DNA of 64,000 bases from Pseudomonas flavescens. GTDB taxonomy: Bacteria; Pseudomonadota; Gammaproteobacteria; Pseudomonadales; Pseudomonadaceae. Each line of letters starts with the position of its first letter. Position 1 is the stretch's first letter. The notes below the pieces were generated by a model that was not told where the DNA came from, did not search any database, and worked only from the letters and a program-made list of their open reading frames with translations. Shown here piece by piece: positions 1-14,921 of the stretch. Both the position numbers and the translations under genes were made by a program. Location: the NCBI RefSeq assembly GCF_013408425.1, contig NZ_JACBYV010000001.1, positions 4,092,001 through 4,156,000 of the forward strand. The letters run 5' to 3'.

Positions 1-180
1 TTCCTTGAGGATCTCCTGAGCCCGCGGCATGACGATGAACTGACCACCGAGGATGACCGCCTGGGTGATCATGTCGTTGGTGAGTTCGTCCTCGGCCTGG
101 GCGTTTTCCAACGCCTGGTCGAATTCGGCCTCGGGGGTGTTCTCTACCGCGGTGTTGCCATCTACCGAGCTGACTGCCAT
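1..180 (-). CDS. Small T3SS-cluster protein, N-terminal 60 residues (cut by window edge)
   Basis: The reading frame starts at an ATG at 180 behind a very good ribosome binding site (AAAGGAGAG) and runs off the left edge, so only the first 60 residues are visible. They are acidic and helix-prone, begin MAVSSVDGNTAVEN and contain FDQALENAQAEDELTND and a hydrophobic stretch AVILGGQFIVMPRAQ. There is no signal peptide. It is the next minus-strand gene after the split secretin N-domain gene and probably continues the T3SS operon. Its size and composition would suit a secreted filament, inner-rod or regulator protein, but I do not recognise the family and the C-terminus is missing. Confidence 0.6.
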   Translation of the reverse strand, partial: MAVSSVDGNTAVENTPEAEFDQALENAQAEDELTNDMITQAVILGGQFIVMPRAQEILKE

Positions 181-219
181 GGAATCTCTCCTTTCACCTG
201 GATGTTGAAAAGCTACCTG

Positions 220-891
220 CTATTGGTCCGCACCCTTGACCACCTGGATGCCGGCACTACCGCGAAACACCCGCACCCCCCGCTCGCGAACCACCTCGGG
301 CTCCGCCGCCACCGGGCTCTGCAGCTGATCGATACGTTGCTGAACCAGCGCCATATAGGGCGGCGGCCCGGAAATCAGCATGCCGTCACCGTGAAAACTG
401 CTGCGCAGAGACAGGTGCTTGCCTGCCACGCCCAGCTCGTCCAGGGAGCTCTGCAACTCGTCGAGCTGAAAACCGCTGGGTTCGAACTGGCGAATCTCGA
501 TCTCTTCCTCACTGTTCACGTGCAGCATGTTGCCGTCGAAGAACCAGGTCAGGCCGCTGTTGCCACACAGCGCGTCGAGAAACTCGCCAGCGCTGGAAGC
601 ACGCAGGTTGCTCTGTGCACGCCCCTTGATCCGGTTGGAAATCGCCATCGGCAGACCGAGGTTGCGCCCGAAGGCCTCCAGCGCACTGCGCAGATCCTGA
701 TTGATCACCACGTAGGCATAGGGCTGCTCGTACCACTGCGGCATCGCCTCGGCGCGCGCCAGCCCCGCACTGCCCGCCAGCAACAGCAGCGACAGCGCCA
801 GGCCGCGCCTGACGGAACCACTATCGGCGCAGGCAGGGCGATGAAACAACCGCCGGCCGGCAACAATCACAAGATTTCGCAGCCGCTTCAC
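220..891 (-). CDS. SctC-type secretin N-domain protein (RhcC1/HrcC1-like)
   Basis: About 223 residues if translation starts at the GTG at 891, which has a weak GGGG ahead of it. No better start is visible and the start is uncertain. A hydrophobic leader (LALSLLLLAGSAGLARA, about residues 31-47) predicts export. The mature part (YAYVVINQDLRSALEAFGRN, then ISNRIKG, FLDALCGNSGLTWFFDGNMLHV and GPPPYMALVQQRIDQL) follows the N0/N1 pattern of T3SS secretins, but the protein stops before any secretin beta-barrel. Split secretins of this kind (short C1, separate C2) are known for rhizobial T3SS and the second T3SS of some P. syringae strains. It would form the periplasmic vestibule of the T3SS outer ring together with the separate secretin at 2204-3481. 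It is transcribed divergently from the TadD-like gene. Confidence 0.7.
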   Translation of the reverse strand: MKRLRNLVIVAGRRLFHRPACADSGSVRRGLALSLLLLAGSAGLARAEAMPQWYEQPYAYVVINQDLRSALEAFGRNLGLPMAISNRIKGRAQSNLRASSAGEFLDALCGNSGLTWFFDGNMLHVNSEEEIEIRQFEPSGFQLDELQSSLDELGVAGKHLSLRSSFHGDGMLISGPPPYMALVQQRIDQLQSPVAAEPEVVRERGVRVFRGSAGIQVVKGADQ

Positions 892-957
892 ATACCCCGC
901 CGAAGATGGCTCTATAGAATGCCCAGCACGTGCCGGATCAACCCAGGAGCAGCGCCT

Positions 958-1767
958 TTGCCGTCGATTTCCCCCCGCCACTTCGTGCTGCTCGCCAGCT
1001 TCGCCCTGCTGGGCGCCTGCAGCAGCAACGCGCCCAGCAATCCGTCCGCGCCAGCGAGCGATGACGCCTACCAACGCCTGATGAAATTGGCCAATGACGT
1101 CGAGGCGCGTGGTGACCGTGGTACCGCCGCAACGCTGTATCAGCGTGCCGCCGAACAACCCGGCGCCGGTTTCGAGGCCTGGCAGCGACTGGGCCGCGCG
1201 CGGCTGGACAGCGGCAATACCCGGGGTGCTGAAGAGGCGTACCAGAAAGCCGTCGCGCTGGAGCCGGACAACCCAGTGGGCCTGCTCGGCCTGGGCACCG
1301 CGCAGCTGCGCCTGGGTTACCCGGAGCGCGCCCAGCCCCTGCTCGCCAGTGCCGCCGAGCAATTGCCCAACGATGCCCAGGCCTTCGCCCGCCTGGGTGC
1401 CGCCGAAGCGCAACTGGGCAATATCGCCGCCATGCAGCGTGCCTTCGCCACCGCGCGCAAGCTGGCTCCCGGCGATCTCGATGCGCGCAGCAACCTGGCG
1501 CTGGCCTACGCCCTCAATGGCGACAGTGCCAATGCGCTGCGCGAGATCGACGGCATCGATCGCGCGCCAACCGCTCAGTTGCGCCATCAGCGCAACGCGC
1601 TGCTGGTCCAGGTGCTGGCTGGCGAGCGCGGCAAACCGGCCAGCGTGCAGCTCGACGACACCAGCGCGGCCAAGCGCCAGGCGCTGATCGCCGAAGCCCG
1701 GCGCATCGCTGCCATCAGTGACCCCGCCGAACGGGCACGGGCCCTGGGGCTGAGCGCTGGGAGATAA
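958..1767 (+). CDS. TPR lipoprotein, TadD-like (candidate secretin pilotin)
   Basis: 269 residues from a TTG start at 958, chosen because AGGAG at 945-949 sits 8 bases upstream and a lipoprotein signal follows at once (FVLLASFALLGAC, lipid-anchored Cys at residue 21). An ATG at 919 in the same frame would put a poor, longer leader ahead of the signal. The rest is a chain of TPR helices (AWQRLGRARLDSGNTRGAEE, DNPVGLLGLGTAQLRLG, AQAFARLGAAEAQLGN, DARSNLALAYALNGD). TPR lipoproteins of this form are TadD proteins, which assist the Tad pilus secretin. Its place between the split secretin N-domain gene and a CpaD-like gene suggests the same role for the T3SS secretin. It is the only plus-strand gene in the T3SS block, and it converges on the CpaD-like gene with 26 bases between stops. 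Confidence 0.75.
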   Translation: MPSISPRHFVLLASFALLGACSSNAPSNPSAPASDDAYQRLMKLANDVEARGDRGTAATLYQRAAEQPGAGFEAWQRLGRARLDSGNTRGAEEAYQKAVALEPDNPVGLLGLGTAQLRLGYPERAQPLLASAAEQLPNDAQAFARLGAAEAQLGNIAAMQRAFATARKLAPGDLDARSNLALAYALNGDSANALREIDGIDRAPTAQLRHQRNALLVQVLAGERGKPASVQLDDTSAAKRQALIAEARRIAAISDPAERARALGLSAGR

Positions 1768-1793
1768 AAGTGGCGACCGCGTGATCGCCTGGC

Positions 1794-2189
1794 TCATTGC
1801 CCACCCCCGGTATCGCTCTGCGCCGCCTGCTCCTGCCGGCGACGGCGCTTCTCGTCGGTTTCGAAGCCTTCCAGATACGACTGAGCTGCCCGGCCCACCG
1901 GCGCGGCCAGCGTCGGCCCCGTCTGTCTGCCGCGCAGCAGATCACCGCGGCGCTCGACCATCTGCAGCAGATTGGCGTTGTTGGCGCAGCCAGGCGGCAG
2001 TGGCAGCAGCTCACGCTCGTCGACCGGCTGACCCTCCTCACTGACGCGACGGCAGGCATCCGGCACCAGCAAGGGCTGGCCGTTGGCGTCGACGAGGGTC
2101 TGGTAGCCGTGGGAATAGCTCGGCGCCTGCAGTTCCGTCTGGCAGGCGCCAAGCAGCAGGCAGGTGGACAGCACGCTCAGACGCGTCAT
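1794..2189 (-). CDS. CpaD-like outer-membrane lipoprotein
   Basis: 131 residues from the ATG at 2189, preceded by GGGGG. An alternative ATG at 2207 overlaps the secretin stop codon (ATGA) and adds six residues. The N-terminus MTRLSVLSTCLLLGAC is a lipoprotein signal with lipobox LLGAC (Cys16). The segment PPGCANNANLLQMVERRGDL (about residues 66-85) followed by LRGRQTGP is the signature of the CpaD/RcpB family, the lipoprotein partner of the CpaC secretin in Tad pili. It directly follows a CpaC-like secretin on the same strand, as in tad loci. I infer that it stabilises or positions the secretin of this T3SS. No other tad genes (ATPase, TadBC, pilin) are in the window. Confidence 0.75.
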   Translation of the reverse strand: MTRLSVLSTCLLLGACQTELQAPSYSHGYQTLVDANGQPLLVPDACRRVSEEGQPVDERELLPLPPGCANNANLLQMVERRGDLLRGRQTGPTLAAPVGRAAQSYLEGFETDEKRRRRQEQAAQSDTGGGQ

Positions 2190-2203
2190 CGCGATACCCC
2201 CGT

Positions 2204-3481
2204 TCATTGCACGTGGAACCCGAAGGAGCTGCTGCGCGCCGGTGCATCGGCACGTGCCCCGAGGGTGCGATCGAGGGGCGTGAGCATGGCTTGGGTCTGC
2301 ACCGGCTCGACCAGATAGGGCGTGATCAGGATCACCAGCTCGGTTTCGTTCTGCTGGAAGCGCTTGGAGCGGAACAGGTTGCCGAGGATCGGCATGTCAC
2401 CGAGCAGCGGGACTTTCTCCAGATCCTGAGCGTTCTCTCGCTGGAACAGGCCCGCGATGGCGAAGGTTTGCCCGCTGCCCACCTCGACACGGGTATCGGC
2501 GCGGCGCACACGGAACGACGGCACGCGGAACCCGGACACCTCCAGCGTGCTGCCGCCCATCAGGCTGCTGACCTCCGGACGCACCTGCAGGCCGATACGG
2601 TCATTGGGCAATAGTGTCGGGCTGAACAGCAGCGACACACCGTAGGATTTGTACTCGACGCCCACCAGATCGCTGTTCACCGGCACCGGCACCGGCACTT
2701 CGCCGCCCGCCAGGAAGCTCGCCGTTTCACCGGTCATGGCGGTGATGTTGGGCTCGGCGAGAATCTCCAGCACGCCGTTGCTCTGCAGCGCCTCGAGCAC
2801 GGTATCAATATTGAAGTTGCCGCTGTCCAGGCCTACGCCGATCAGGTTGGAGGCGCCCGCGGCAGCCTCCGCCGCCAGATTGCCTCCGGTGAGCAGGCCG
2901 AACGAGAACGTGCCGTTGTTGAACAGCGCGTTCCAGCTCACCCCGTAACGCAGCAGCTCTTCGCGGGACACTTCGGCGAAGCGTACGCGAATGTTCACCT
3001 GCGCCGACCCCGGGTAGGTCGCGGTATTCACCGCGCCCTGCCATTCCTGCCCGGTAGGGTCGAGCATGGCATTGAGGTCCAGCGCCTCGCCGACGCTGCT
3101 GACCTGGCCGCGGGCCGCCAGGCGGTTGCCCACGCCTTTCACTTCGGTAGCGCTTTGCGGATGGCGGCTGCGCAGCGCGCTGCTGATCGGTCGACCATTG
3201 CTGCCGACGTTGATCTGCAGCGAGGCGATCTCTCGCTCGTCGCTGCCCAGGGCCACCAGCGTGGTGTGCCCGGCACGCTTGCCGAACAGGTAGATGACGC
3301 CAGGCGACACCACCTGCAGGTCGGCGACGCCAGGCTCGGCGACCATCACCGCATCCACCGGCTCGGCGAAACGCATGATGCGCCCCTCCCCCGTCGCCAG
3401 GTCGATGCTGCCTCCTGACGGTGACTGCGCCACGGCCAGCAACGGTATGCAGCAGAGCATCAGCAGCAGCCCGCGCATCAT
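2204..3481 (-). CDS. Secretin of CpaC/RcpA type serving the T3SS (RhcC2-like)
   Basis: 425 residues with a signal peptide (residues 1-18, cleavage after AVA). A pilus-type N domain follows (about 25-95: RIMRFAEPVDAVMVAEPGVA, then LQVVSPGVIYLFGKRAG), then the secretin core (about 225-390) with LEILAEPNITAM, the glycine/valine gate segment AGGEVPVPVPVNSDL and the C-terminal signature VPLLGDMPILGNLF (357-370). This layout is that of Tad pilus CpaC/RcpA secretins, not of a full-length SctC. The start codon overlaps the stop of sctV by four bases, so translation is probably coupled and it belongs to the T3SS operon. It would form the outer-membrane channel. Confidence 0.85.
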   Translation of the reverse strand: MMRGLLLMLCCIPLLAVAQSPSGGSIDLATGEGRIMRFAEPVDAVMVAEPGVADLQVVSPGVIYLFGKRAGHTTLVALGSDEREIASLQINVGSNGRPISSALRSRHPQSATEVKGVGNRLAARGQVSSVGEALDLNAMLDPTGQEWQGAVNTATYPGSAQVNIRVRFAEVSREELLRYGVSWNALFNNGTFSFGLLTGGNLAAEAAAGASNLIGVGLDSGNFNIDTVLEALQSNGVLEILAEPNITAMTGETASFLAGGEVPVPVPVNSDLVGVEYKSYGVSLLFSPTLLPNDRIGLQVRPEVSSLMGGSTLEVSGFRVPSFRVRRADTRVEVGSGQTFAIAGLFQRENAQDLEKVPLLGDMPILGNLFRSKRFQQNETELVILITPYLVEPVQTQAMLTPLDRTLGARADAPARSSSFGFHVQ

Positions 3482-5613
3482 GTGGCACCTGCCAGAGCAG
3501 CAGGTGCGGGCTCGTTTCTTTCCGCCCGCGAGGTGGCCGGTGAGCCGATCACCTTGATCGCCTGCAGGCTGTATTCCGGAGCCAGTTCGGTAAAGGACAG
3601 CACGGCCATCTCCAGTTCGTCACGAATGCACAGGCGCAGGATCCGGCGGCGTAGCTCGGGGTGTACCACCAGGGTCGGTTTGATCTGTTCGGGGAGTTGC
3701 GCACACTGCTGACGCAGTGCCTTGAGCAGACCGCGGGTGGCCTCCCGGGCACGGATTTCACCGCGGCCGGTGTCTTGCTGGCGCGCCGCCTCCAGCAACT
3801 GAGCCTCCAGGGCCGAGCCCAGCACGAAGGCGGCGATCACCCGCTTTTCATCGGCATGCTGATGGCTGATCTGGCGGGCCAGCGCGGTACGCAGGTGGTC
3901 GCTAAAACGCCCGACGTCACCTTCGCGGCCCCCCCACTCGACCATCGCTTCGAGCAGCGCACGGCGATTGCGGATCGATACCCCTTCGGCGACCAGCCGA
4001 CGCAGGGCATCGGCGACACGCTGCAGAGGTACGGCACGCAGGGCTTCCTTGACCAGTTCGCCATGGCTCTCCTCCAGATGGGCGAGCAACTGACGGGTTT
4101 CCTGGATACCGAGAAAGTCCCCGGCGTAGCGGCGCAGGGTGCGCGCCATCACATCGCGAAGAATTTCATCCGGGCGCAGGTAGACGATGCCCGCATCGCT
4201 CAGCTCGGCCTGGTGCTCGCCAGGGATCCACAGGCCCGGGCGGCTGCTCAGCGGCGAGGCGCGCTCCTCGCCCTGAATGTCGAGCAGTTGCAGGTGCACG
4301 GGGTCGTCGCGCAGCAGTACCTGGGCAGGATTCAGGTCGCCCTGATCCACCGGCACGCCCTCCAGCTCGACCCGGTAGCTGCCCGTTGCAGCGGCCATGT
4401 CGACCCGCACCGACGGCAGCGGAAATTCGATGCCCAGCTCGTTGTGCAGATCGTGGCAGAGCACCTCGAGGCGCTGCTTGAAGGGCTGCAGAGGCACCAC
4501 CTCGGCCAGCCCCGGACCGATGGACAGCAGCACGCGGGAGTCGGCGGTGGCGGGAGAGGCCTCGGCTTCGGGCTCGACCTCCACAGCAGCCGCTTCGACC
4601 ACCTCGGCCGCGCACGCCTCGGCTTCCTGCTCGCGGCGCTGGCGACGCATCAGCATCCAGGCGCACAGCCCCAGCACCGCCGACAGGCCGAGAAACACCG
4701 GCGCCGGGAAGCCAGGGATGAAGGCGACGGCAGCCAGGATCAGCGCCGTGAGCGTAAGGGCCCGCTGGCTATTGCCCATCTGGCGGATAATCTCGGTACC
4801 CAGGTCGGCCTGCTCGGCCTCGTTGTTGACCCGGGTAACCACGGTACCGGCCGCCACGGCGATCAGCAGGGCCGGGATCTGCGCGATCAGCCCGTCGCCC
4901 ACGGTGAGCAGCGAGTAGGTGTGCCCGGCCTCGGCGAAGGACATGCCACGCGACAGCATGCCGATCAGCAGGCCGCCAATCAGGTTGACGAAGAGAATCA
5001 CCAGGCCGGCGATGGCGTCGCCTTTGACGAACTTCATCGAGCCGTCCATGGCGCCGAACAGCTGGCTCTCGCGCTGCAGGTCGGAACGTCGACGACGGGC
5101 CTCGCCGGCATCGATATCGCCGTTGCGCAGGTCGTTGTCGATGCTCATCTGCTTGCCAGGCATGGCATCCAGGCTGAAACGCGCCGCCACCTCGGCGACC
5201 CGCTCGGCGCCTTTGGTGATCACCACGAACTGCGCCACGGTGATGATCAGGAAGATCACCAGACCGACCACCACTTCGCCGGCGATGACGAATTTGCCGA
5301 AGGCTTCGATGATGTGCCCGGCATCGCCGTGCAGCAGAATCAGCCGCGTGGTGCTGATCGACAGAGCCAGCCGGAACAAGGTGCTGAGCAGGATCAGCGC
5401 TGGCAGCGCAGACAGCTCCAGCGGCTTGCTGATGTAGAACGCGACGATCAGCACGAGGATGCTGAGGGCGATGCTGATGCCGATCAGGGTGTCGACCAGG
5501 TAGGTCGGCAGCGGGATGATCATCATCACGATGGCCATCATCATGAAGGCGACGATCACCACCTCGGTACGTTGCGCGGCCATGCCCGCCAGGGCGCTGA
5601 GACGCGCCATCAT
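3478..5613 (-). CDS. sctV: T3SS export gate protein SctV (FHIPEP family)
   Basis: 711 residues, the usual length for SctV/HrcV/RhcV/LcrD. The first roughly 330 residues carry hydrophobic helices separated by the FHIPEP-family loop (ARFSLDAMPGKQMSIDNDLR, about 144-163, then NGDIDAGEARRRR). The second half is the cytoplasmic domain that assembles into a nonameric ring and receives substrates and chaperones. Flagellar FlhA is the paralogue; T3SS assignment rests on the adjacent sctD, YscY-like and secretin genes and the absence of flagellar genes. The start overlaps the preceding TPR gene by four bases and the end overlaps the secretin gene by four bases, so this is a tightly coupled operon. Confidence 0.95.
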   Translation of the reverse strand: MMARLSALAGMAAQRTEVVIVAFMMMAIVMMIIPLPTYLVDTLIGISIALSILVLIVAFYISKPLELSALPALILLSTLFRLALSISTTRLILLHGDAGHIIEAFGKFVIAGEVVVGLVIFLIITVAQFVVITKGAERVAEVAARFSLDAMPGKQMSIDNDLRNGDIDAGEARRRRSDLQRESQLFGAMDGSMKFVKGDAIAGLVILFVNLIGGLLIGMLSRGMSFAEAGHTYSLLTVGDGLIAQIPALLIAVAAGTVVTRVNNEAEQADLGTEIIRQMGNSQRALTLTALILAAVAFIPGFPAPVFLGLSAVLGLCAWMLMRRQRREQEAEACAAEVVEAAAVEVEPEAEASPATADSRVLLSIGPGLAEVVPLQPFKQRLEVLCHDLHNELGIEFPLPSVRVDMAAATGSYRVELEGVPVDQGDLNPAQVLLRDDPVHLQLLDIQGEERASPLSSRPGLWIPGEHQAELSDAGIVYLRPDEILRDVMARTLRRYAGDFLGIQETRQLLAHLEESHGELVKEALRAVPLQRVADALRRLVAEGVSIRNRRALLEAMVEWGGREGDVGRFSDHLRTALARQISHQHADEKRVIAAFVLGSALEAQLLEAARQQDTGRGEIRAREATRGLLKALRQQCAQLPEQIKPTLVVHPELRRRILRLCIRDELEMAVLSFTELAPEYSLQAIKVIGSPATSRAERNEPAPAALAGAT

Positions 5614-5951
5614 GCGTCACGCTCCTGGCGCAGTTGCCGGTAGCGAGTGAAACAGGCGCGGGCCTCGGTGTACTGGCCGCAGCTCCACAGGGCGCGGCTG
5701 CGCAGCAGCAGCCAGGCTGCCGACTCGCCCTGCAGCGCATGCAGGCGATCCAGAGTGCGCAGCGCCCGCTCGCCATCGCCGATGGCGGTGAAGGCCGCAG
5801 CCAGGCGGGCCAGCAACACCTGATCGTCAGGGTTCAGTTGCACGGCCAGCAGCAACAGCACCAGCGCGCGCTGCCCTTGGCCAACCCGCAGATAGAGATC
5901 GCCCAGGCCTTGCAACAGCTTGGCGGCATCATGATCGTCGCGCTGCATCAT
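5610..5951 (-). CDS. Small TPR protein, YscY/Y4yS-like
   Basis: 113 residues, cytoplasmic, two to three TPR-like helical hairpins (KLLQGLGDLYLRVGQGQRAL, LNPDDQVLLARLAAAFTAIG, AWLLLRSRALWSCGQYTEAR). Length and pattern match YscY (114 residues), especially the end, where an AWL.L.SRA motif leads into a final helix. YscY binds YscX and the SctV cytoplasmic domain. Rhizobial clusters also carry a TPR protein (Y4yS) beside rhcV. The gene lies directly before sctV and overlaps its neighbours by four bases on both sides (ATGA junctions). I infer that it supports SctV assembly or early-substrate export. Whether it is a true SctY orthologue cannot be settled by eye. Confidence 0.65.
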   Translation of the reverse strand: MMQRDDHDAAKLLQGLGDLYLRVGQGQRALVLLLLAVQLNPDDQVLLARLAAAFTAIGDGERALRTLDRLHALQGESAAWLLLRSRALWSCGQYTEARACFTRYRQLRQERDA

Positions 5952-6319
5952 TCCCCCGTCTCGGTTTCGACCCGCTGCCGGTCCAGTGCCTGACGGGTGT
6001 CGAGCTCTTCACGGACGAGGGCCATGGCCAGCGTTCTGGTTTCGCCGTCGAGCGGCAGCGTCGGCAGGATGCGTTCGAGAATGTCCTCGAGAATTTCCGC
6101 GGGCCGCGAACCGGCGAACAGCCCCGGTTCCACACCAGCGGCCAGCTCCAGCGCCTGCAGGTCATCCTGTACCGATGGCAGAGGTGGCGTGCGCGGCAGG
6201 CTGGGCTGGCGGACGGCCGGTGGCGGCGTGGGTGATGCGGGGGACAGCTCGCTCGGACGCGTACGAACATCCGACGCTGCATCCGCTGGAGCTAACGGGG
6301 CGCGTGAATCGATCTTCAT
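5948..6319 (-). CDS. Unassigned T3SS operon protein in the SctX position
   Basis: 123 residues from the ATG at 6319, one base after the stop of sctD. The first half is rich in Pro, Ala and Ser (about residues 6-50: PLAPADAAS, SPASPTPPPAVRQPSLPR) and looks disordered. The second half is helical and acidic (PAEILEDILERILPTLPLDG, then LAMALVREELDTRQALDRQR). YscX, the YscY partner, is about 122 residues and is encoded next to yscY, so position and length would fit SctX. I see no convincing sequence match, so the assignment is positional only. A disordered N-terminus would suit a T3SS substrate or chaperone-bound protein. Confidence 0.55.
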   Translation of the reverse strand: MKIDSRAPLAPADAASDVRTRPSELSPASPTPPPAVRQPSLPRTPPLPSVQDDLQALELAAGVEPGLFAGSRPAEILEDILERILPTLPLDGETRTLAMALVREELDTRQALDRQRVETETGE

Positions 6320-6320
6320 G

Positions 6321-7271
6321 CTAGCCCTCAGGCACTGGCGAAGGTCCGAGCGTGAGGGCGAAACGCTCGTCACCGAGCGCCAGCACCACCTGGCCATCCT
6401 CGATACGCTCGAGCTTCCAGCCACCTTCGAGGGGGGCACCGGGGTACAGGCGCGCACCTGATGCGTTGATCACGTAGGGGTTGTCGCCGAACCACACGGC
6501 CTGAAAATTGACCCGGGGGCGGGCGGCGTTTTCGCGCACGCTGACATCACCGCGCAGTACGTATTGGCGGCCGTAACGGCCATCGAAGTACTGCTGCAGG
6601 GCCAGCCAGTCCTGCTCCTGACCAGGCTCCACGGTGCCGCTGACGCGCAACTGCCCGGCACTGGCGTCCAGTTTGAGGTTGTTCAGCCCGGCGGCCTTGG
6701 CCTGGCTGGCCAGGTCGGCGCGGGCCAGTTGCAATGACGCGGCCCTGGGCACTTGCGCTGGCTGCTCCTCGGCGATCGTCAGCCGCTGCAGCGACTCGGG
6801 TTCCGCGGCGTACATCGGGGAGTCGCGCAGCATCGCCAGGGCGCCCGCGCAGATGAACATGAACAGCGCGGCGATGGCCCATTGCGCCTTGCCGTACCAC
6901 ACGGGGTTGGCAGCCGTGCCACGCTGCGGCATGGCGAGACGCAGGGTGGCGTCGCCGACGCGGATATCCACAGGCAGTCGACCGCGGTAGCCGTGCCCGC
7001 GCGCGATCATGGTTTCACGCCCGCCGCGGATCACCCGTACGTCGCCGCCGGTGGCCTCCACGCCGACGTGGCGGGCACTGAAGCGCAGGGTCAGGTGACG
7101 CTCCGCAACCCCGGCGTCACGCAGCATCAGGTTCGCCGCAGCGCCACTGCCGATGCTGTACACCGCTTCATCGAGCGGCAGGGAAACGCCACGGTGGATG
7201 CCGGCGGTCACATCCAGACGGGGCAGGTCGCCGCTGTTCGGCAGGACGGAACTAGAGGCTATCGCAGTCAT
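6321..7271 (-). CDS. sctD: T3SS inner-membrane ring protein SctD with FHA domain
   Basis: 316 residues from the ATG at 7271, which has GGTGAG just ahead. A GTG at 7280 would add three residues. An N-terminal FHA-like domain (about 20-112: LDVTAGIHRGVSLPLDEAVY, SIGSGAAANLMLRD, ERHLTLRF) is followed by one transmembrane helix (about 131-148, WAIAALFMFICAGALAML) and a periplasmic part with BON/ring-building repeats (LDASAGQLRVSGTVEPGQEQ, then VLRGDVSVRENAAR). This is the YscD/HrpQ/Y4yQ layout: cytoplasmic FHA, single membrane pass, periplasmic ring domains. It forms the outer of the two inner-membrane rings and contacts the secretin. It is followed after one base by the SctX-position gene. Confidence 0.8.
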   Translation of the reverse strand: MTAIASSSVLPNSGDLPRLDVTAGIHRGVSLPLDEAVYSIGSGAAANLMLRDAGVAERHLTLRFSARHVGVEATGGDVRVIRGGRETMIARGHGYRGRLPVDIRVGDATLRLAMPQRGTAANPVWYGKAQWAIAALFMFICAGALAMLRDSPMYAAEPESLQRLTIAEEQPAQVPRAASLQLARADLASQAKAAGLNNLKLDASAGQLRVSGTVEPGQEQDWLALQQYFDGRYGRQYVLRGDVSVRENAARPRVNFQAVWFGDNPYVINASGARLYPGAPLEGGWKLERIEDGQVVLALGDERFALTLGPSPVPEG

Positions 7272-7397
7272 ATGACTCACCGGGTTCGCGGCTCGCGCCT
7301 GGGCTCAGGGATTGCACTATCGAACGACGCATCGGGCCAGAACGGCTCGACCACGCACTCGATGGAAAAGATGCCGATAACGGCGCAGACACAGGTT

Positions 7398-7422
7398 GCA
7401 GGCGACGCCGAGCGCCGCCTGC
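7398..7422 (-). other. Stem-loop after the 53-residue gene
   Basis: GCAGGCG at 7398-7404 pairs with CGCCTGC at 7416-7422 around an 11-base GC-rich loop, just after the stop codon of the small T3SS gene and 127 bases before sctD. It has no U-tract. An RNA stem here could stabilise the short upstream message or attenuate read-through, giving more of the small protein than of the machine parts. This is inference from position only. Confidence 0.3.
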
Positions 7423-7430
7423 AGCCCGGG

Positions 7431-7592
7431 TCAGTTCTGCGGACGCTGCTTGGTCGCGTCGAGCTCGGCTTTCTTGGCCGTGGTGATCTCGGTGATCTTG
7501 GCGGACTTCTCGATCGCCATATCGAATACTGCGGACATCTTGTCGATGGCGGCGTCTGAGTTGCCACTGTTTACTGCAGGAGTCTCAGCCAT
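7431..7592 (-). CDS. 53-residue T3SS cluster protein, candidate filament or export substrate
   Basis: Starts at the ATG at 7592 and encodes a 53-residue, Cys-free, soluble helical protein (MAETPAVNSGNSDAAIDKMS ... IEKSAKITEITTAKKAELDA). It is the first gene of the minus-strand T3SS operon, ahead of sctD, with about 160 bases and a stem-loop in between. First-gene position, small size, Ser/Asn-rich N-terminus and long amphipathic helix are features of needle, pilin or rod subunits of T3SS, but it is shorter than typical SctF proteins (about 80 residues) and I do not recognise the family. The leader reads MAxxxxVxxxx, much like the other small cluster protein at the left edge. Confidence 0.5.
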   Translation of the reverse strand: MAETPAVNSGNSDAAIDKMSAVFDMAIEKSAKITEITTAKKAELDATKQRPQN

Positions 7593-7723
7593 GGGATATC
7601 TCCGAACGGTTCTAAGGGTAATTGGCGGCACCACCAGCGGTGATGGCCGGTTTCAGGAAAACCACCTCGGTGAGCGGGCTTTCCTGCAACGACTCGAAGA
7701 CTAGGGAGGGATGACCAAGCGGT

Positions 7724-7753
7724 GTTGTTAAAGGTTGTTAAAGCTTGTTGAGC
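7724..7753. promoter_or_regulatory. Three 10-bp direct repeats in a divergent control region
   Basis: GTTGTTAAAG occurs at 7724-7733 and again at 7734-7743, followed by a diverged copy CTTGTTGAGC at 7744-7753. The repeats sit one helical turn apart in the 252-base region between the divergent T3SS small gene (start 7592) and the marR gene (start 7845). GCTTAAC motifs follow at about 7777 and 7814. Helically phased direct repeats are typical of activator sites, so this could control the T3SS operon or the MarR gene. Confidence 0.4.
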
Positions 7754-7844
7754 AGCGCTTAACGAATGTGCAGAACCGCGCCACTGGCCAGCTGCAGCAC
7801 GAGCATGCAAAATGCTTAACACGCTTAACCGAAGAAGAGCCCCC

Positions 7845-8324
7845 ATGAGCAGCCCCTCCAGTCAGATCGATACCGCTCCAGGCACCTCGCACGGGGCCGA
7901 TGCCCTCAGCGACAACTGGCTGGACACGCTGGTCGGCTACGCCCTGCGCCGCGCCCAGTTGAAAGTGTTCCAGCATCTGGTGGGCAATCTCGCCGAACAT
8001 GACCTGCGCCCTGCACAATTCACCGCCATGGTGATCATCGACAACGAGCCCGGCCTCATGCAGGCGGATCTGGCCCGCCAGCTTGCCATCGAACCGCCGC
8101 AACTGGTGCCTCTGCTCAACAAGCTGGAAACCCGCGGCCTGGCGCAGCGCGTACGGGGCGTGCAGGACAAGCGCGCCTACGGGGTGTTCCTCACCAAGGC
8201 CGGGCTGACCCTGCTGGAGCAGCTCAAGGCCGTCGCCGTGGCCAGCGACGATGCCGCCACCGCCGCCCTCGACGAAGATGAGCGCGTGCAATTGCTGCAC
8301 CTGCTGCGCAAGGTCAATGGCTAA
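7845..8324 (+). CDS. MarR-family transcriptional regulator
   Basis: 159 residues from the ATG at 7845. A winged-helix MarR core runs from about residue 25 to 145: LRPAQFTAMVIIDNEPGLMQ, then LARQLAIEPPQLVPLLNKLE (recognition region) and GLAQRVRGVQDKRAYGVFLT (wing). MarR proteins of this kind control hydroxycinnamate catabolism and sense the CoA thioester (FerC/FerR type). The gene converges on the end of the acd-aat-fcs-vdh-ech operon, and an inverted repeat overlaps the -35 box of that operon, so I infer that it represses ech and is relieved by feruloyl- or coumaroyl-CoA. The link to the T3SS side is less likely but it shares the upstream region with it. Confidence 0.8.
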   Translation: MSSPSSQIDTAPGTSHGADALSDNWLDTLVGYALRRAQLKVFQHLVGNLAEHDLRPAQFTAMVIIDNEPGLMQADLARQLAIEPPQLVPLLNKLETRGLAQRVRGVQDKRAYGVFLTKAGLTLLEQLKAVAVASDDAATAALDEDERVQLLHLLRKVNG

Positions 8325-8369
8325 GCGCAGCGTCGAGCGACAAGGCTCGCGTTGCCTGTCGACGCGCTG

Positions 8370-8385
8370 CAGGTGCTTGCACCTG
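8370..8385. terminator. Hairpin between convergent marR and acd
   Basis: CAGGTGC and GCACCTG form a perfect 7-bp stem with a 2-base loop immediately after the acd stop codon. A second inverted repeat, built on GCAGCGTCGA and its near complement, lies at about 8333-8369. Neither is followed by a clear U-tract. They lie in the 63-base gap between two convergent genes and may end transcription from both sides. Confidence 0.35.
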
Positions 8386-8387
8386 GC

Positions 8388-10130
8388 TCAGTGCAGAAAG
8401 GCCAACGGCGCACGGGCGGCCTCGATTCGCGCGATACGCAGGTCGATTTCCGGCAACAGATAGCTGAAGAAGAACGCCGCGCTATCGAGCTTTTCCTGAT
8501 ACCCCTCATCCTCCGTCAGCAGCGTGCGCGCCAGGCGTGCCGAGCGCGCCCAGGCATGGGCCAGCAGTGCCCAGCCCATCAGATGGAGAAAGTCACCGGC
8601 GATCCGGTAGGGATATTCAGCGTCGCCCTCGACGCCTTCACGGATCCGTAGCAAGACCCCGCGCAGCGTGCTGCACAGGTCACTCAACAGCCCGGCGTAC
8701 GCACCGCCAGCGGCACTCTCCTCGTCGAACAGCGCGAGCAGTTCGGTGAAGGCCAGGCCCTGATCGGCGAGCACCTTGCGCAGCAGCAGATCGTTGGCCT
8801 GAATCTCGTTGCTGCCTTCGTAGATCATGGCGATACGGCTATCGCGCAGGGTCTGCTCGACGGCGTACTCGCCGATGTAGCCGTAACCACCGAAGACCTG
8901 CAGCGCCTCGCTGGCCAGGTGAAAGCCCTGATCGGTGAAGAATGCCTTGATGACTGGCGTCAGCAGACCCGCCAGGCGCTGAGCCTGCTGGCGCGTCGGC
9001 TCGGCGACGGCGTGCTCGGCCTGGTCCAGCAGATGCGCCCCCCAGTAACCGATGACCCGCAGACCCTGGCTGACCGTGCGCAGGCGCAGCAGGGCCAGAC
9101 GCATGGCCGGGTGGTAATGGATCGGGTCGGCGCCAGCAGCAGCAGCCACCCCGGCAGGGCGCGCCGGTGCCCGCATCTGCTGACGCTGACGGGCGTAATC
9201 CGCGGCGTTCTGCCAGGCGGCCTCGGCATGCCCAAGGCCCTGCAGACCGACGTGCAGGCGCGCCGAGTTCATCATCACGAAGATCGCCGCCAGCCCGCGA
9301 TGCGCCTCACCGATCAACCACCCCTGGGCGCCGTCGAAATTCAGCGAACAGGTGGCGCTGCCCTTGATGCCCATCTTGTGCTCGATGCCGTCACAACGCA
9401 GGGCATTGCGCTGGCCATCCTTCAGGTACTTGGGCACCAGAAACAGCGAAATGCCTCGGCTGCCGGCTGGCGCATCCGGCAGCCGGGCCAGCACCAGATG
9501 CAGGATATCGTCGGTCAGGTCGTGCTCGCCGCCGGAGATGAACAGCTTGCTGCCGGTGATCCGGTAACTGCCATCCGCATGGGCTTCGGCTCGGCAACGC
9601 AGCAAGCCGACATCGCTGCCGGCCTGCGGCTCGGTCAGGCACATGGTCGGCAGCGCCTGCCCGGATACGACGGCTTCCAGGTAGCGTGCCTTGATGCCCT
9701 CCGGCGCGTGGGCCTGCAGACACAGGTAGGCACCATGGGCGATGCCGGTGTACATGGCCCAGGCGTGGTTGCTGGCGTAGAGCATTTCCTGCAGCGCTGC
9801 GTCGAGCAACTGCGGCAAGCCCTGGCCACCATGGGCGGGGTCACAGGCCAGCGCCGGCCAACCGCCCTCCACGAATGCGCGGTAGGCGTCCGCGAATCCC
9901 TCGGGCGTGCTCACCTCGCCATCGTGCCAGCGGCAACCCTGACGATCGCCGCTGCCGTTCAGGGGCGCCAGCACGCCTGAACTGAAGCGCCCGGCTTCCT
10001 CCAGCACCTGCAGCGCCAACGGCAGATCGACGTCAGCGAAAGACGGCAGCTCGGCCCAGGCCGCAGGTGCCTGCAGCCAGTGTTCGAGAACGAATTGCAT
10101 ATCGCGCAGAGGCGCTTGGTAATGCCACAT
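8388..10130 (-). CDS. Acyl-CoA dehydrogenase of the hydroxycinnamate operon
   Basis: 580 residues, longer than the usual 380-residue enzymes and of the DmdC-like class with an extended C-terminus. Family motifs include TMCLTEPQAGSDVGLLRCRA (flavin and substrate region), KLFISGGEHDLTDDI, NFDGAQGWLIGEAHRGL and IAMIYEGSNEIQANDLLLRK, in which the Glu of YEG is the expected catalytic base. It is the last gene of the ech-vdh-fcs-aat-acd run. In P. putida and P. fluorescens a dehydrogenase and a thiolase accompany fcs/ech and were proposed to serve a beta-oxidative side route, while the main route uses Ech. The gap to aat is 30 bases, so co-transcription is likely. Confidence 0.85.
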   Translation of the reverse strand: MWHYQAPLRDMQFVLEHWLQAPAAWAELPSFADVDLPLALQVLEEAGRFSSGVLAPLNGSGDRQGCRWHDGEVSTPEGFADAYRAFVEGGWPALACDPAHGGQGLPQLLDAALQEMLYASNHAWAMYTGIAHGAYLCLQAHAPEGIKARYLEAVVSGQALPTMCLTEPQAGSDVGLLRCRAEAHADGSYRITGSKLFISGGEHDLTDDILHLVLARLPDAPAGSRGISLFLVPKYLKDGQRNALRCDGIEHKMGIKGSATCSLNFDGAQGWLIGEAHRGLAAIFVMMNSARLHVGLQGLGHAEAAWQNAADYARQRQQMRAPARPAGVAAAAGADPIHYHPAMRLALLRLRTVSQGLRVIGYWGAHLLDQAEHAVAEPTRQQAQRLAGLLTPVIKAFFTDQGFHLASEALQVFGGYGYIGEYAVEQTLRDSRIAMIYEGSNEIQANDLLLRKVLADQGLAFTELLALFDEESAAGGAYAGLLSDLCSTLRGVLLRIREGVEGDAEYPYRIAGDFLHLMGWALLAHAWARSARLARTLLTEDEGYQEKLDSAAFFFSYLLPEIDLRIARIEAARAPLAFLH

Positions 10131-10160
10131 GAAGCACCTCGCAAAGTACCGGTTGAAGCC

Positions 10161-11399
10161 TCAAGGCCGATAGCCTGGGTTCTCGATCAGCAGCGCCATG
10201 CCCTGTCCACCACCAATGCAGGCAGCGGCGATGCCGTAACGTAGATTGGCGTCGCGCAGCTGCCGTGCCAGGGTCATCACCAAACGCAGGCCGGTAGCGG
10301 CCAGTGGGTGGCCAAGAGCGATGGAGCCGCCGCGTTGATTCAGACGCGAAGGATCCAGCTCCAGCACCTGACTGACCGCTAGTACCTGGGCGCCCTGAGC
10401 CTCGTTGATTTCCAGCAGACCGATCTCATCGAGCCTCAGGCCGCTGCGCTTCAGCAATAGCTGGATGGCGGGCGCGGGGCCGATGCCCATGCTCTCCGGC
10501 GCCACGCCGATCACGCTGGCAGCGCGCAGCAGCGCCAGAGGCGAGCGCGTGCAGTCGCACGCGCGGCCGACCAGGGCCGCCGCCGCGCCATCGACCACCG
10601 CGCAGCTGTTGCCAGCGGTCTGCACACCGCTGGGATGAATGGCGTTCAAGCGGGCCAGCGCCTCGGCATCGGTAGGCCGTGGATGACTATCCTGCGCCAC
10701 GTCGGCAACCCGCCTGGGCAGTTGAATGCCGCGCGTCTGATAGCCATCCAGTTCAAAGCGCTCATTGCCGACGGCGACGATCTCTTCGGCCAGCCAGCCA
10801 CCGTCGCGAGCCTGCAGGGCTCGCTGGTGACTGCTCAGCGCATAGGCATCCACCTGCTCGCGGCTGATGCCATAGTCATGGGCCAGGCGTTCTGCGGTGG
10901 CGATCATGTCCACGCCCGGGGCCGGGTCGTAAAGGGCCTCCCAGAGGAAATCCTTGAACTCCACTGCTGCGCCAAGGCGAAACCCTGCGCGGTGTGCATA
11001 GGCGACGATGGGGTTGCGCGACATGGACTCGGCGCCCACGCACAGTGCCAGTTGCACACCGTCACGCAACTGCGTGCCGGCCTGGCGCAACAGCTCCAGG
11101 CCGGTGCCGCAGATCCGCTGCAAGGCCAGAGCAGGCACCTGTCGTGGCACGCCACTGTAGAGGCCGACATGCCTTGGCAGCAGGTAGGCGTCGAAACTGG
11201 CCTGGGCCATGCAGCCGGCCAGCACGCTGTCTACCGCGCCTGGCTCGAGACCTGCTCGTGCCAGCACGGCGCGCCCGACCTTGATGCCCAGATCGATGGG
11301 CGAGACCTGGGCCAGCGCCCCATTGAGGTCGACCCAGGGCGTGCGCACCGCCTCGATGATCGCGACATCGTCGAAGCCCGTGAACTGCCCGCCGTTCAC
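10161..11399 (-). CDS. aat: Thiolase (acetyl-CoA acetyltransferase family) of the ferulate operon
   Basis: 412 residues, a full-length thiolase. The acyl-accepting Cys is in LQRICGTGLELLRQ, the glycine-rich HPLAATGLRLV carries the active-site His, and the second catalytic Cys is in AACIGGGQGMALL near the C-terminus. Function: thiolytic cleavage or condensation of 3-ketoacyl-CoA. It overlaps fcs by four bases and precedes acd. It corresponds to the Aat thiolase found beside fcs/ech/vdh in P. putida, where it is not essential for ferulate breakdown. The gene symbol is from that neighbourhood and is tentative. Confidence 0.8.
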   Translation of the reverse strand: MNGGQFTGFDDVAIIEAVRTPWVDLNGALAQVSPIDLGIKVGRAVLARAGLEPGAVDSVLAGCMAQASFDAYLLPRHVGLYSGVPRQVPALALQRICGTGLELLRQAGTQLRDGVQLALCVGAESMSRNPIVAYAHRAGFRLGAAVEFKDFLWEALYDPAPGVDMIATAERLAHDYGISREQVDAYALSSHQRALQARDGGWLAEEIVAVGNERFELDGYQTRGIQLPRRVADVAQDSHPRPTDAEALARLNAIHPSGVQTAGNSCAVVDGAAAALVGRACDCTRSPLALLRAASVIGVAPESMGIGPAPAIQLLLKRSGLRLDEIGLLEINEAQGAQVLAVSQVLELDPSRLNQRGGSIALGHPLAATGLRLVMTLARQLRDANLRYGIAAACIGGGQGMALLIENPGYRP

Positions 11400-13381: not shown

Positions 13382-14830
13382 CTAAATGGGATAGTGCCGC
13401 GGGCCGTTCTGCAGGGTGACCCAGCGCAGTTGGGTGAACTGCTCGATCGCCGATCTGCCGCCGAAGCTGCCGTAGCCGCTGGACTTGACGCCACCGAAAG
13501 GCATTTGCGCCTCGTCGTGCACGGTCGGCCCATTGATGTGGCAGATGCCCGACTCGACGCGCTGCGCCAGCGCCAGCGCACGGCCGGTGTCACGGCTGAA
13601 GATCGCTGCCGACAGCCCGAACTCGGAGTCGTTGGCCAGGCGCAGCAGGTCCTCGTCGCCGTCACCGCGTAGCACCACGGCAACCGGGCCAAAGGACTCT
13701 TCGGCATACAGACGCATCGCCGGGGTCACCCCGTCGAGCAGCGTGGCCTGCATGATGCTGCCTTCGACCTGACCGCCCGCGACCAGGCGCGCGCCCTTGC
13801 TGACGGCATCGTCGACCAATGCCTTGATACGCTCGCCTGCCGACACGTCGACCAGCGAACCCAGCACCGAAGCGCTGTCGGCCGGGTCACCGGCACGCAA
13901 GGTGGCGATCTTCTCGGCCAGCTTGGCCACGAAGGCATCGGCAACCCGGGCATCCACCAGCAGCCGTTCGGTGGACATGCAGATCTGCCCCTGGTTGAAG
14001 TAGGCACCGAACGCCGCGGCGTCGACGGCGGCATCCAGATCGGCGTCATCGAGCACCAGCAAGGGAGCCTTGCCACCGAGTTCCAGCAGTGCCGGCTTGA
14101 GGTGACGTGCCGAGAGCTCACCGACGATGCGCCCGACCTTGGTCGAGCCGGTGAAGTTGACCCGTCGCACCGCCGGGTTGGCGATCAGCCGCTCGACGAT
14201 CGCCGCGGCATCGGCCGGCGCGTTGCTGATCACGTTGACCACGCCATCACCCAGGCCGGCATCCTGCAGCACCTGGCCGATCAGCCGATGCACCGCCGGG
14301 CTCAGCTCGGATGCCTTGAGCACCACGGTATTGCCGCAAGCCAACGGCATGGCGATGGCGCGGGTGGCGAGAATCACCGGCGCGTTCCAGGGCGCGATGC
14401 CAAGCACCACGCCACAGGGTTGCCGCAAGGCCATGGCGAAACTGCCGGGGACGTCGGAGGGAATCACCTCGCCGTTGATCTGCGTGGTCAGCGACGCCGC
14501 CTCGCGCAGCATGTTGGACGCCAGGTGCACGTTGAAACCGTACCAGTTGGCCATCGCCCCGGTTTCCCCGGCGGCGGCGATGAACTCGCCGGCCCGTGCC
14601 TGCATCTGCTCGGCCGCCTTGAGCAGGCGTGTACGCCGCTCGTTGGGGGCCAGCGCAGCCCAGGCGGGAAAGGCAGCCTGGGCCGCGGCAACCGCCGCGT
14701 CGGCATCCTCCAGCGTGGCGGCAGCGACACGCGAAACCAGGTCACCGGTCACCGGGTTGCGGCGCTCGAAGGTTCGTCCATCACCGGCGGGGCACGATTG
14801 GCCGCCGATCAGCAGGGGCACGTCCAGCAT
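13382..14830 (-). CDS. vdh: Vanillin / 4-hydroxybenzaldehyde dehydrogenase
   Basis: 482 residues from the ATG at 14830 (AGAGGA six bases upstream). NAD(P)-dependent aldehyde dehydrogenase fold: GIAPWNAPVILATRAIAMPL, NFTGSTKVGRIVGEL (nucleotide binding), ALLELGGKAPLLVLDDADLD (catalytic Glu) and YFNQGQICMSTERLLV (catalytic Cys). It oxidises the aldehyde released by Ech, vanillin to vanillate and 4-hydroxybenzaldehyde to 4-hydroxybenzoate. It lies between ech and fcs, the arrangement known from pseudomonads. The products feed VanAB (23.4 kb) and PobA (28.4 kb) in the same window. Confidence 0.92.
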   Translation of the reverse strand: MLDVPLLIGGQSCPAGDGRTFERRNPVTGDLVSRVAAATLEDADAAVAAAQAAFPAWAALAPNERRTRLLKAAEQMQARAGEFIAAAGETGAMANWYGFNVHLASNMLREAASLTTQINGEVIPSDVPGSFAMALRQPCGVVLGIAPWNAPVILATRAIAMPLACGNTVVLKASELSPAVHRLIGQVLQDAGLGDGVVNVISNAPADAAAIVERLIANPAVRRVNFTGSTKVGRIVGELSARHLKPALLELGGKAPLLVLDDADLDAAVDAAAFGAYFNQGQICMSTERLLVDARVADAFVAKLAEKIATLRAGDPADSASVLGSLVDVSAGERIKALVDDAVSKGARLVAGGQVEGSIMQATLLDGVTPAMRLYAEESFGPVAVVLRGDGDEDLLRLANDSEFGLSAAIFSRDTGRALALAQRVESGICHINGPTVHDEAQMPFGGVKSSGYGSFGGRSAIEQFTQLRWVTLQNGPRHYPI

Positions 14831-14921
14831 GATGATTCCTCTTATTGTCTTTATCGGGAGCTGCCTGTGTCGGCAACACTGCGGCGCTGTCGCCAGCGCC
14901 ACATGAAGCAAGGCACAGCGA

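Follow-up and report, generated by a model that had tools for sequence, protein, structure and literature searches.

Positions 220-7280 of the window, by which we mean the whole 64,000-nucleotide stretch of Pseudomonas flavescens DNA analysed here, encode the outer-ring half of a type III secretion system (T3SS) located on the chromosome. The locus is probably an Rhc-family T3SS of subgroup II, the P. syringae T3SS-2 type, with an outer-membrane part derived from a Tad pilus system. The split secretin, the opposite-strand TPR ORF between its halves C1 and C2, and the Tad origin of C2 have already been published for this subgroup, as far as excerpts of that literature go. New here are the candidate assignment of the TPR lipoprotein as a TadD homologue, the shortening of the neighbouring CpaD, and a conserved peptide at the end of the secretin RhcC2. 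Gene content, homology, secretin ancestry, neighbourhood and the conservation of the secretin tail and of an Asn in the TPR groove were all read from sequence.

The genes are real, and sctJ, L, N, Q, R, S, T and U adjoin the window directly on the left. On the reverse strand of the window, the export gate gene sctV (3478-5613) scores 757.4 bits against TIGR01399, above the equivalog cut-off of 692.25, and sctD (6321-7280, reverse) combines an FHA-type cytoplasmic domain (PF16697, 6.5e-10; PF21934, 3.9e-10) with the Y4YQ C-terminal domain (PF23893, 9.4e-17); the first-pass annotation had named sctV and an FHA-type sctD. That annotation had also called the small TPR protein at 5610-5951 (reverse) YscY/Y4yS-like; it is the TPR chaperone SctY (NF052415, 71.1 bits against a cut-off of 70), which rules out Y4yS. 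A 123-aa ORF between sctD and sctY (5948-6319, reverse) matched no family, has homologues at 31-33% identity in three other loci (L013, L014 and L015), and from its place is a possible SctX-like gene. Beyond sctU, where a hrpK-like gene was looked for, a 1185-aa ORF has no Pfam match.

This arrangement is that of Rhc subgroup II: C1 carries SctC N-domains and C2 the secretin domain, an opposite-facing TPR ORF and an ORF after C2 lie between them, C2 adjoins sctV, SctY precedes sctV, and SctD is of the Rhc type with its Y4yQ-like C-terminus. Excerpts of Gazi et al. (2012; PMC3574062) give the same gene order for P. syringae T3SS-2, including the split C1/C2, the opposite-facing TPR ORF between them, the ORF after C2, a SctY-like TPR ORF before V, and an ATPase-type regulator, which is also present in our cluster; those excerpts give no role for the TPR and post-C2 ORFs. 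Among the matches listed, C2 of the window is 71-72% identical to the copies of P. tremae, P. cerasi, P. viridiflava and P. syringae GR12-2; the host here has a Phytopseudomonas-like genome. Injection into eukaryotic cells, a trait of Rhc subgroup II, may extend to the present system.

RhcC1 (SctC1; 220-891, reverse) comprises the N0-N1 domains of a T3SS secretin in a separate protein, as the first-pass annotation had said: TIGR02516 is covered at positions 2-138 of 463 only (1.2e-20), and the N0 domain PF21304 (2.8e-4) scores under its cut-off. The start is uncertain (849, 870 or 891), making 223 aa an upper bound. An HMM match to RhcC1 lies within the locus stretch for 47/58 loci of subgroup II, and was also obtained in all seven of the 11 remaining loci that were searched as whole genomes (all but L039, L055, L065 and L069).

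RhcC2 (2204-3481, reverse) is a Tad (CpaC/RcpA)-type secretin with PF13629 at its N-terminus (3.9e-18) and PF00263 (7.4e-43). The start of its gene (ATG) shares 4 nt with the end of sctV, an overlap already recorded in the first pass, and its stop overlaps the ATG of the following CpaD-like gene (2204-2207). The best PDB match is RcpA (8odn, 8.6e-52), with the T3SS secretin MxiD at 2.4e-4. In a quick tree, where SctC, GspD and PilQ were represented by one long-branched row each, RhcC2 grouped with Tad secretins rather than with these; the secretin tree covered loci other than L015, L054, L106, L075, L086 and L078 after removal of near-copies above 85%, and a 55-row set additionally left out L113, L003, L004, L114, L110 and L111. 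An SctC of the YscC/HrcC/InvG clade, in which a single protein holds both the N-domains and the secretin domain, is not what we found, and the PDB ranking together with the tree rules out an SctC identity for RhcC2. The CpaC-type reading of the first-pass annotation thus stands; grouping with SctC, which it had named as the result that would count against it, was not obtained.

The lipoprotein encoded directly after RhcC2 (1794-2207, reverse) is, judged by motif and neighbourhood, a shortened CpaD. The Pfam profile PF09476 (Pilus_CpaD) matches over positions 160-198 of 200 (8.3e-6) at 26.1 bits, under the gathering cut-off of 31.1 and short of a full CpaD domain; a Halomonas copy exceeds the cut-off over the same part of the profile (34.8 bits). 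Aligned with four full CpaDs, the protein retains Cys-31 and, at its C-terminus, the motif GCAN..NL..M, and lacks most of the region from lipobox to motif. What was first described as a CpaD-signature lipoprotein therefore keeps its C-terminal motif and its secretin neighbour but is not a full-length CpaD. A CpaD homologue adjoins the secretin in 58/58 subgroup II and 6/6 subgroup I loci, as counted with an HMM iterated on members of the same neighbourhood. The structure model of the protein is poor (pLDDT 60.7).

Between C1 and C2, on the forward strand, lies the gene for a TPR lipoprotein (919-1767; lipobox Cys codon at 1018; alternative TTG start at 958). It stands opposite to the secretin and sctV and is thus not part of the sctV operon, a correction to the first pass, whose TadD-like reading of the gene holds. 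Searches of its own genome, with 30 and 41 candidates, gave as next best match the TPR protein encoded after tadC in the second Tad locus, and an HMM of 55 T3SS copies matches TadD-like proteins of alphaproteobacteria (8e-41 to 1.5e-25). By these comparisons the protein is a TadD homologue, closest among the matches listed to the TadDs of alphaproteobacterial (Rhodospirillales-like) Tad loci. The gene was found in the locus stretch of 55/58 subgroup II loci, and the genomes of the three remaining loci gave a match as well; it is opposite in strand to the secretin in 49 of the 55; excerpted literature reports the ORF missing in P. syringae pv. oryzae 1_6. Mature T3SS copies are 236-256 aa long; of eight alphaproteobacterial TadD-like proteins measured, four have 251-261 aa and the others 282-578.

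This nearness to TadD is seen in comparison with proteins of the genome itself and of the loci; it is not seen with PDB chains. TadD (8odn_B) was absent from the 60 PDB matches listed, both in a sequence search with the window protein and in one with a T3SS/TadD profile. Fold searches with the structure model (pLDDT 92.9) likewise did not return 8odn chain B among the matches listed, and generic TPR solenoids tied with the pilotins PilF and PilW. In the TPR tree (made without L012, a duplicate of L106, matches under 20 bits and near-copies above 75%), the copies from subgroup II come out as a single group (99) only if the long-branched pSymA orphan is included.

The C-terminus of RhcC2 is a conserved peptide preceded by a variable linker. 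In the window this is FGFHVQ, its last six codons (2207-2224, reverse), which from its conservation we propose as a docking tag for the TPR lipoprotein. Gly occupies position -5 in 58/58 subgroup II loci (30/30 without near-copies), followed at -4 by Phe in 50 and Leu in eight; all six subgroup I secretins end in GFI(I/V)E, and GF falls within the last six residues of 25/27 secretins from the Tad loci among the matches listed. GF is missing from two Tad secretins (NDAS), from the pSymA orphan (HFLELQ) and from the RcpA-type secretin of the genome itself (ADGLSR). In P. aeruginosa, RcpA binds TadD and assembles into a secretin only with its last four residues in place, and TadD D139 lies at the contact (PMC10499894). 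The conserved RhcC2 peptide stands where this tail does. On the TPR side, Asn159 of the mature protein, aligned to D139, is present in 57/57 T3SS copies, with Asn also in 6/6 Tad copies; TadD R79, which contacts the terminal residue of RcpA, aligns with Leu in the window protein. The RhcC2 tail may therefore dock on the TPR lipoprotein. Secretin and TPR lipoprotein families and the groove Asn/Asp position are common to the two systems, and the C-terminal peptide would have the same role in both; the P. aeruginosa pair serves a pilus, however, its tail sequence differs, and the 8odn structure was, according to the excerpted text, solved without a CpaD orthologue.

A charge swap between tail and groove was also considered. 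A clade of eight Lys-tailed rows has Ala, Asp or Glu at residue 98 of the TPR protein, a position occupied by Arg, Gln, His or Asn in the 49 remaining rows. We set this aside as support because 25 columns differ in charge between the clade and the remaining rows, because the swap may be a single event, and because six Tad rows have Ala at this residue.

In the assembly that we propose, the inner-membrane rings and export gate are ordinary T3SS parts, and the outer-membrane part is Tad-derived. RhcC2 would form the outer-membrane channel, and RhcC1, the retained N0-N1 ring of the old SctC, would serve as adaptor to SctD; RhcC1 as a linker was proposed by Abby and Rocha. The TadD-like lipoprotein would be the pilotin, its TPR groove holding the RhcC2 C-terminal peptide and carrying RhcC2 to the outer membrane, and the shortened CpaD would sit on the outside of the channel. 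Taken as a whole, this explanation seems to us a good deal more probable than its competitors.

The strongest of these, which we hold unlikely but worth weighing, assigns the assembly of RhcC2 to the CpaD-like lipoprotein, a task that CpaD appears to have in Caulobacter, and leaves the TPR protein an accessory or regulatory role. C. crescentus requires CpaD and can dispense with CpaO, its TadD orthologue, according to excerpts of PMC13170226; in the window it is the CpaD-like gene that overlaps with that of the secretin, the TPR gene being on the other strand, and a CpaD-like gene keeps its place beside the secretin in all 58 loci, compared with 55 for the TPR gene in the locus stretch. Yet little of CpaD is left in the T3SS version, which lacks the proposed peptidoglycan-binding part, and the conserved RhcC2 tail and groove Asn agree with the RcpA-TadD contact. 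Still less probable is that the gene between C1 and C2 encodes some other TPR lipoprotein, such as a chaperone or translocon factor, rather than a TadD orthologue. TPR domains are common, PDB sequence and fold searches return generic TPR proteins, and the opposite strand implies separate transcription; against this, the gene with its lipobox recurs in all 58 loci or their genomes, its mature length is near that of four of the eight alphaproteobacterial TadD-like proteins, and its next best match in the genome is the Tad-locus protein.

That a tad locus merely adjoins an unrelated T3SS, the case that the first-pass annotation had set against itself, is so improbable that we regard it as ruled out, even with Tad-type secretin, CpaD-like and TadD-like genes present. 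The sequence to the left holds sctJ-sctU, so that sct genes flank the secretin, which itself overlaps sctV. A tblastn search of the window and 20 kb to its left with 11 Tad proteins from both Tad loci of the same genome (threshold 1e-3) matched only the secretin within the window and nothing in the 20 kb, with no match for the Tad ATPase, platform, CpaB/RcpC or CpaE/TadZ; no TadA/CpaF or TadB/C gene stands beside the secretin. The two Tad loci of the genome lie elsewhere.

The preferred reading, a Rhc subgroup II T3SS with Tad-derived outer-membrane parts, bears on where those parts came from. The first-pass annotation had suggested wholesale capture of a Tad module in this Pseudomonas, but other pseudomonads, Halomonadaceae and rhizobia also have C2, the CpaD-like gene and the TPR gene as neighbours in their subgroup II loci. 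This shared neighbourhood indicates that the T3SS, which is of a known kind, brought its Tad parts along and that they were not captured here; the resident gamma-type Tad locus has no CpaD match. Rhizobial T3SSs of subgroup I (NGR234 pNGR234a, M. loti) share RhcC1, a Tad-type RhcC2 and an adjoining CpaD-family lipoprotein, which is full length there (188 aa, 1.7e-15 in M. huakuii) and shortened here. Their Y4yS adjoins sctV (two records, L098 and L102) and matches the subgroup II TPR profile at only 8.2e-6 (NGR234) and 8.8e-13 (Bosea); excerpted literature has already published the CpaD homology of the lipoprotein and the TadD likeness of Y4yS.

Among the matches listed, 17 alphaproteobacterial (Rhodospirillales-like) Tad loci have CpaD after CpaC in 17/17 (weakly in L075, which is cut). 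Their TadD-like gene is opposite in strand in 9/9 loci with a match, as in the T3SS; the other eight have no TadD match in the locus stretch, and L077, L079 and L089 none in about 9 kb after the secretin. Most of their secretins among the matches listed end in GFxx(D/E). Unlike the locus here, they carry CpaF/TadA and, in most, an unshortened CpaD. With Tad loci sampled unevenly, as those nearest to the subgroup II secretin among the matches listed, a single clade of subgroups I and II gave p-AU 0.077 for the secretin (careful tree of 31 chosen rows) and 0.106 for secretin, TadD and CpaD joined (30 chosen rows), values that decide for neither one nor two captures. A single capture is favoured by the truncation of RhcC1 that the two subgroups share. 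Repeated uptake is a tentative alternative that we rather doubt: Rhc T3SSs would have taken up Tad outer-membrane parts more than once, subgroup II with its own secretin, CpaD and TadD and subgroup I with a different set, including Y4yS, nearer to Burkholderia-type Tad, so that channel and pilotin would be an exchangeable cassette on a conserved T3SS, and pilotins would dock by the same C-terminal peptide code in Tad and T3SS.

The TPR lipoprotein would thus be a candidate pilotin for subgroup II, whose T3SSs, as a 2015 commentary (PMC4500985) observed, are without y4yS, which left their pilotin open, with a likely contact between the last RhcC2 residues and the TPR groove. Our results suggest that the move from Tad to T3SS involved a channel together with its helper lipoproteins, the old N-ring being kept as an adaptor, and they make the swapping of outer-membrane parts between secretion machines a testable question.

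On the minus strand of the window, sctD (7280-6321) is followed by a 123-aa ORF (6319-5948), sctY (5951-5610), sctV (5613-3478), the secretin gene rhcC2 (3481-2204), a CpaD-like lipoprotein gene (2207-1794) and rhcC1 (about 891-220), which encodes a separate SctC-type N-domain protein. Start/stop overlaps of 4 nt link the genes from the 123-aa ORF to the CpaD-like lipoprotein, and a TadD-like TPR lipoprotein gene (919-1767, plus strand) lies between the latter and rhcC1. The genome is one contig of 5.95 Mb (window at G000:C1:4092001-4156000), and the closest protein relatives carry Phytopseudomonas or Pseudomonas names (P. daroniae, P. argentinensis, P. dryadis). To the left of the window come a 67-aa ORF, a 135-aa ORF without a family at the place of sctI, sctJ, an ORF at the sctK place, sctL, sctN, an ORF at the sctO place, and then sctQ, sctR, sctS, sctT and sctU. 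SctJ, SctL, SctQ, SctR and SctT pass curated cut-offs; SctN, SctU and SctS fall below equivalog cut-offs, yet these families are their best or near-best matches. After sctU comes an oppositely oriented regulator gene whose product has winged-helix and NTPase domains, then a 1185-aa ORF without a Pfam match (5799-9356 of the left-flank locus L009), a candidate translocon or secreted protein.

The first-pass annotation had read positions 1-7592 of the window as a T3SS cluster with a Tad-like outer-membrane set, rather than a tad locus beside an unrelated T3SS, and the left flank bears this out: the sct genes looked for are there, and tblastn with 11 proteins from the genome's two Tad loci (threshold 1e-3) found nothing in the 20 kb left of the window. 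Within the window, the secretin was their sole match. Those Tad loci lie at ~4.56 Mb (L011/L105) and ~2.87 Mb (L012/L106); one is gamma-type, without a CpaD match and with a 501-aa TPR protein, and the other pairs a full CpaD (5.2e-35) with a TadD-like protein.

The Tad ancestry claimed for the secretin also held. Of the solved structures, RcpA matches it best (8odn; 8.6e-52, vs. 2.4e-4 for MxiD and 5.7e-4 for InvG), and a tree of 61 rows separates the T3SS and Tad secretins from PilQ, GspD and SctC (support 99), each represented by one long-branched row. Subgroup II, the P. syringae T3SS-2 type, and subgroup I, the rhizobial type with Y4yS, each form one clade (99 and 100). Abby and Rocha place RhcC2 in the Tad secretin branch, equate RhcC1 with the N-terminal portion of an NF-T3SS secretin and propose it as a linker to SctD (passages of PMC3459982).

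We scanned GTDB species genomes with the secretin alignment and kept the best 80 loci, 54 T3SS (L017-L070) and 26 Tad (L071-L096). Adding the window and the plasmid loci of NGR234 (pNGR234b), Rhizobium johnstonii and Halomonas sp. PA16-9 brought the subgroup II set to 58 loci, 54 of them from the best 80; SctV was matched in 57, the exception being the short L054. TadA/CpaF was matched in 24 of the 26 Tad loci, weakly in L090 (contig end), and not in L075 and L086, both short. An RhcC1 match of ≤1.1e-31 was present in 16 genomes, our own included, of the 149 sampled from the window's genus, out of 56 with any match at 1e-3; the remaining matches were weaker and mostly in long frames, the pattern that whole SctC-like or other secretins would give.

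Related loci were met in passing. In the Halomonas plasmid locus (L015), the secretin (13881-15184) and sctD (9832-10856) are each split in two reading frames, by either decay or sequencing error. On a Leisingera sp. S132 plasmid (L114 9923-13937; Rhodobacterales), a Tad-type secretin with the tail AGFLY immediately precedes an RhcC1-like N-domain protein (HMM 5.4e-29; PF03958 4.6e-6), and a gene with FlhA annotation comes next; this is a split-secretin T3SS relative or remnant. Mesorhizobium huakuii pMHb (L016 13129-15874) carries a response regulator, rhcC2 and cpaD with insertion sequences on each side and no annotated sct genes in the stretch around them. Sinorhizobium meliloti pSymA (L110 9872-12117) carries an orphan Tad-type secretin with a BON domain, a 98-aa ORF and a TPR protein, with no annotated Tad motor genes within the 21 kb stretch.

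The final residues of P. aeruginosa RcpA are described as sitting in the TadD groove and as needed for TadD binding and secretin assembly (passages of PMC10499894). All 58 subgroup II secretins have Gly at -5 from the C-terminus, with Phe (50) or Leu (8) at -4, and 50 of them are aromatic at -6; with near-copies removed, Gly is kept in 30/30, with Phe in 24 and Leu in 6. The 26 positions upstream are variable (2.0-3.5 bits, inflated by an ungapped count). The tail reads (F/Y)GF(Y/H/V)-hydrophobic-polar or charged in 50 and GLI(I/V)K in eight (L057, L063-L069), and GFI(I/V)E in 6/6 subgroup I secretins. Tad secretins (L071-L096 and L111) carry GF within the last six residues in 25/27, all except L077 and L086; outside this set, tails were ADGLSR and AGYLF (own genome), NGFYY (Vibrio) and HFLELQ (pSymA orphan).

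An HMM was built from 55 T3SS copies of the TPR protein, mostly from the best 80 loci. Of the 17 alphaproteobacterial Tad loci among those 80, nine contained a TPR protein that it matched (best per locus 8e-41 to 1.5e-25), all nine opposite the cpaC strand; five of the eight loci without a match end at a contig edge. The HMM also recognised TPR proteins in 8 of 9 Burkholderia-type loci, there on the cpaC strand (8.2e-18 to 6.1e-12), our genome's TadD2 (5.8e-13) and Y4yS of Bosea (8.8e-13) and NGR234 (8.2e-6). The T3SS copies of the gene run opposite to the secretin in 49/55 loci and along with it in 6/55; the three loci without it in their stretch each have a genomic match, sharing 80, 61 and 35% identity with the L068 copy. 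Against our whole genome, the R. johnstonii T3SS copy found the window gene (5.8e-40) and otherwise only the TPR protein after tadC in the second Tad locus (2e-8), which is also next for the window protein (5e-7), followed by one more TPR frame (8.3e-5). The structure model is confident (pLDDT 92.9, 13 helices); PDB searches by sequence and by fold did not single out TadD. By alignments read by eye, TadD D139, which other TadDs reportedly replace by Asn (PMC10499894), corresponds to Asn159 of the mature protein (57/57 T3SS and 6/6 Tad rows) and V142 to Leu162 (63/63); the R79 position is not conserved. Residue 98 is Ala, Asp or Glu instead of Arg or Gln in the clade with Lys-ended tails (L057, L063-L069), possibly a matched change.

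The CpaD-like lipoprotein retains the lipobox, a Cys and a C-terminal motif, and most of the region between is gone. Short CpaD-like frames of 131 aa also stand behind the secretin in Burkholderia-type Tad loci (e.g. L082, L083), which means that the T3SS need not be where the protein became short. In a Caulobacter model, CpaD encircles the secretin like a belt and its OmpA-like part binds peptidoglycan (passages of PMC13170226).

Subgroups I and II may have captured Tad parts once or twice. They do not group together in a 31-row secretin tree; subgroup I joins Burkholderia-type Tad there (95/91) and in the tree of secretin, TadD and CpaD joined (93/88), and Y4yS joins Burkholderia-type TadD (89). 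Forcing both together was not rejected (p-AU 0.077 secretin, 0.106 joined), and the truncated RhcC1 is common to both.

For subgroup I, Mercante et al. report CpaD homology for the lipoprotein mlr8762, a TadD-like Y4yS and lowered RhcC2 upon Y4yS loss (passages of PMC4311626); Gazi describes y4yS as missing from subgroup II (PMC4500985). The window arrangement fits P. syringae T3SS-2 as outlined in PMC3574062, including an opposite-facing TPR ORF between both secretin genes. The P. syringae ORF, PSPPH_2523, is not presented as a pilotin in the passages naming it, and the titles and abstract openings listed from open-licence literature described no subgroup II pilotin. The system is of an already known kind, a subgroup II T3SS, in a new host; by this reasoning, two subgroup II genes without an earlier role are now given putative functions.
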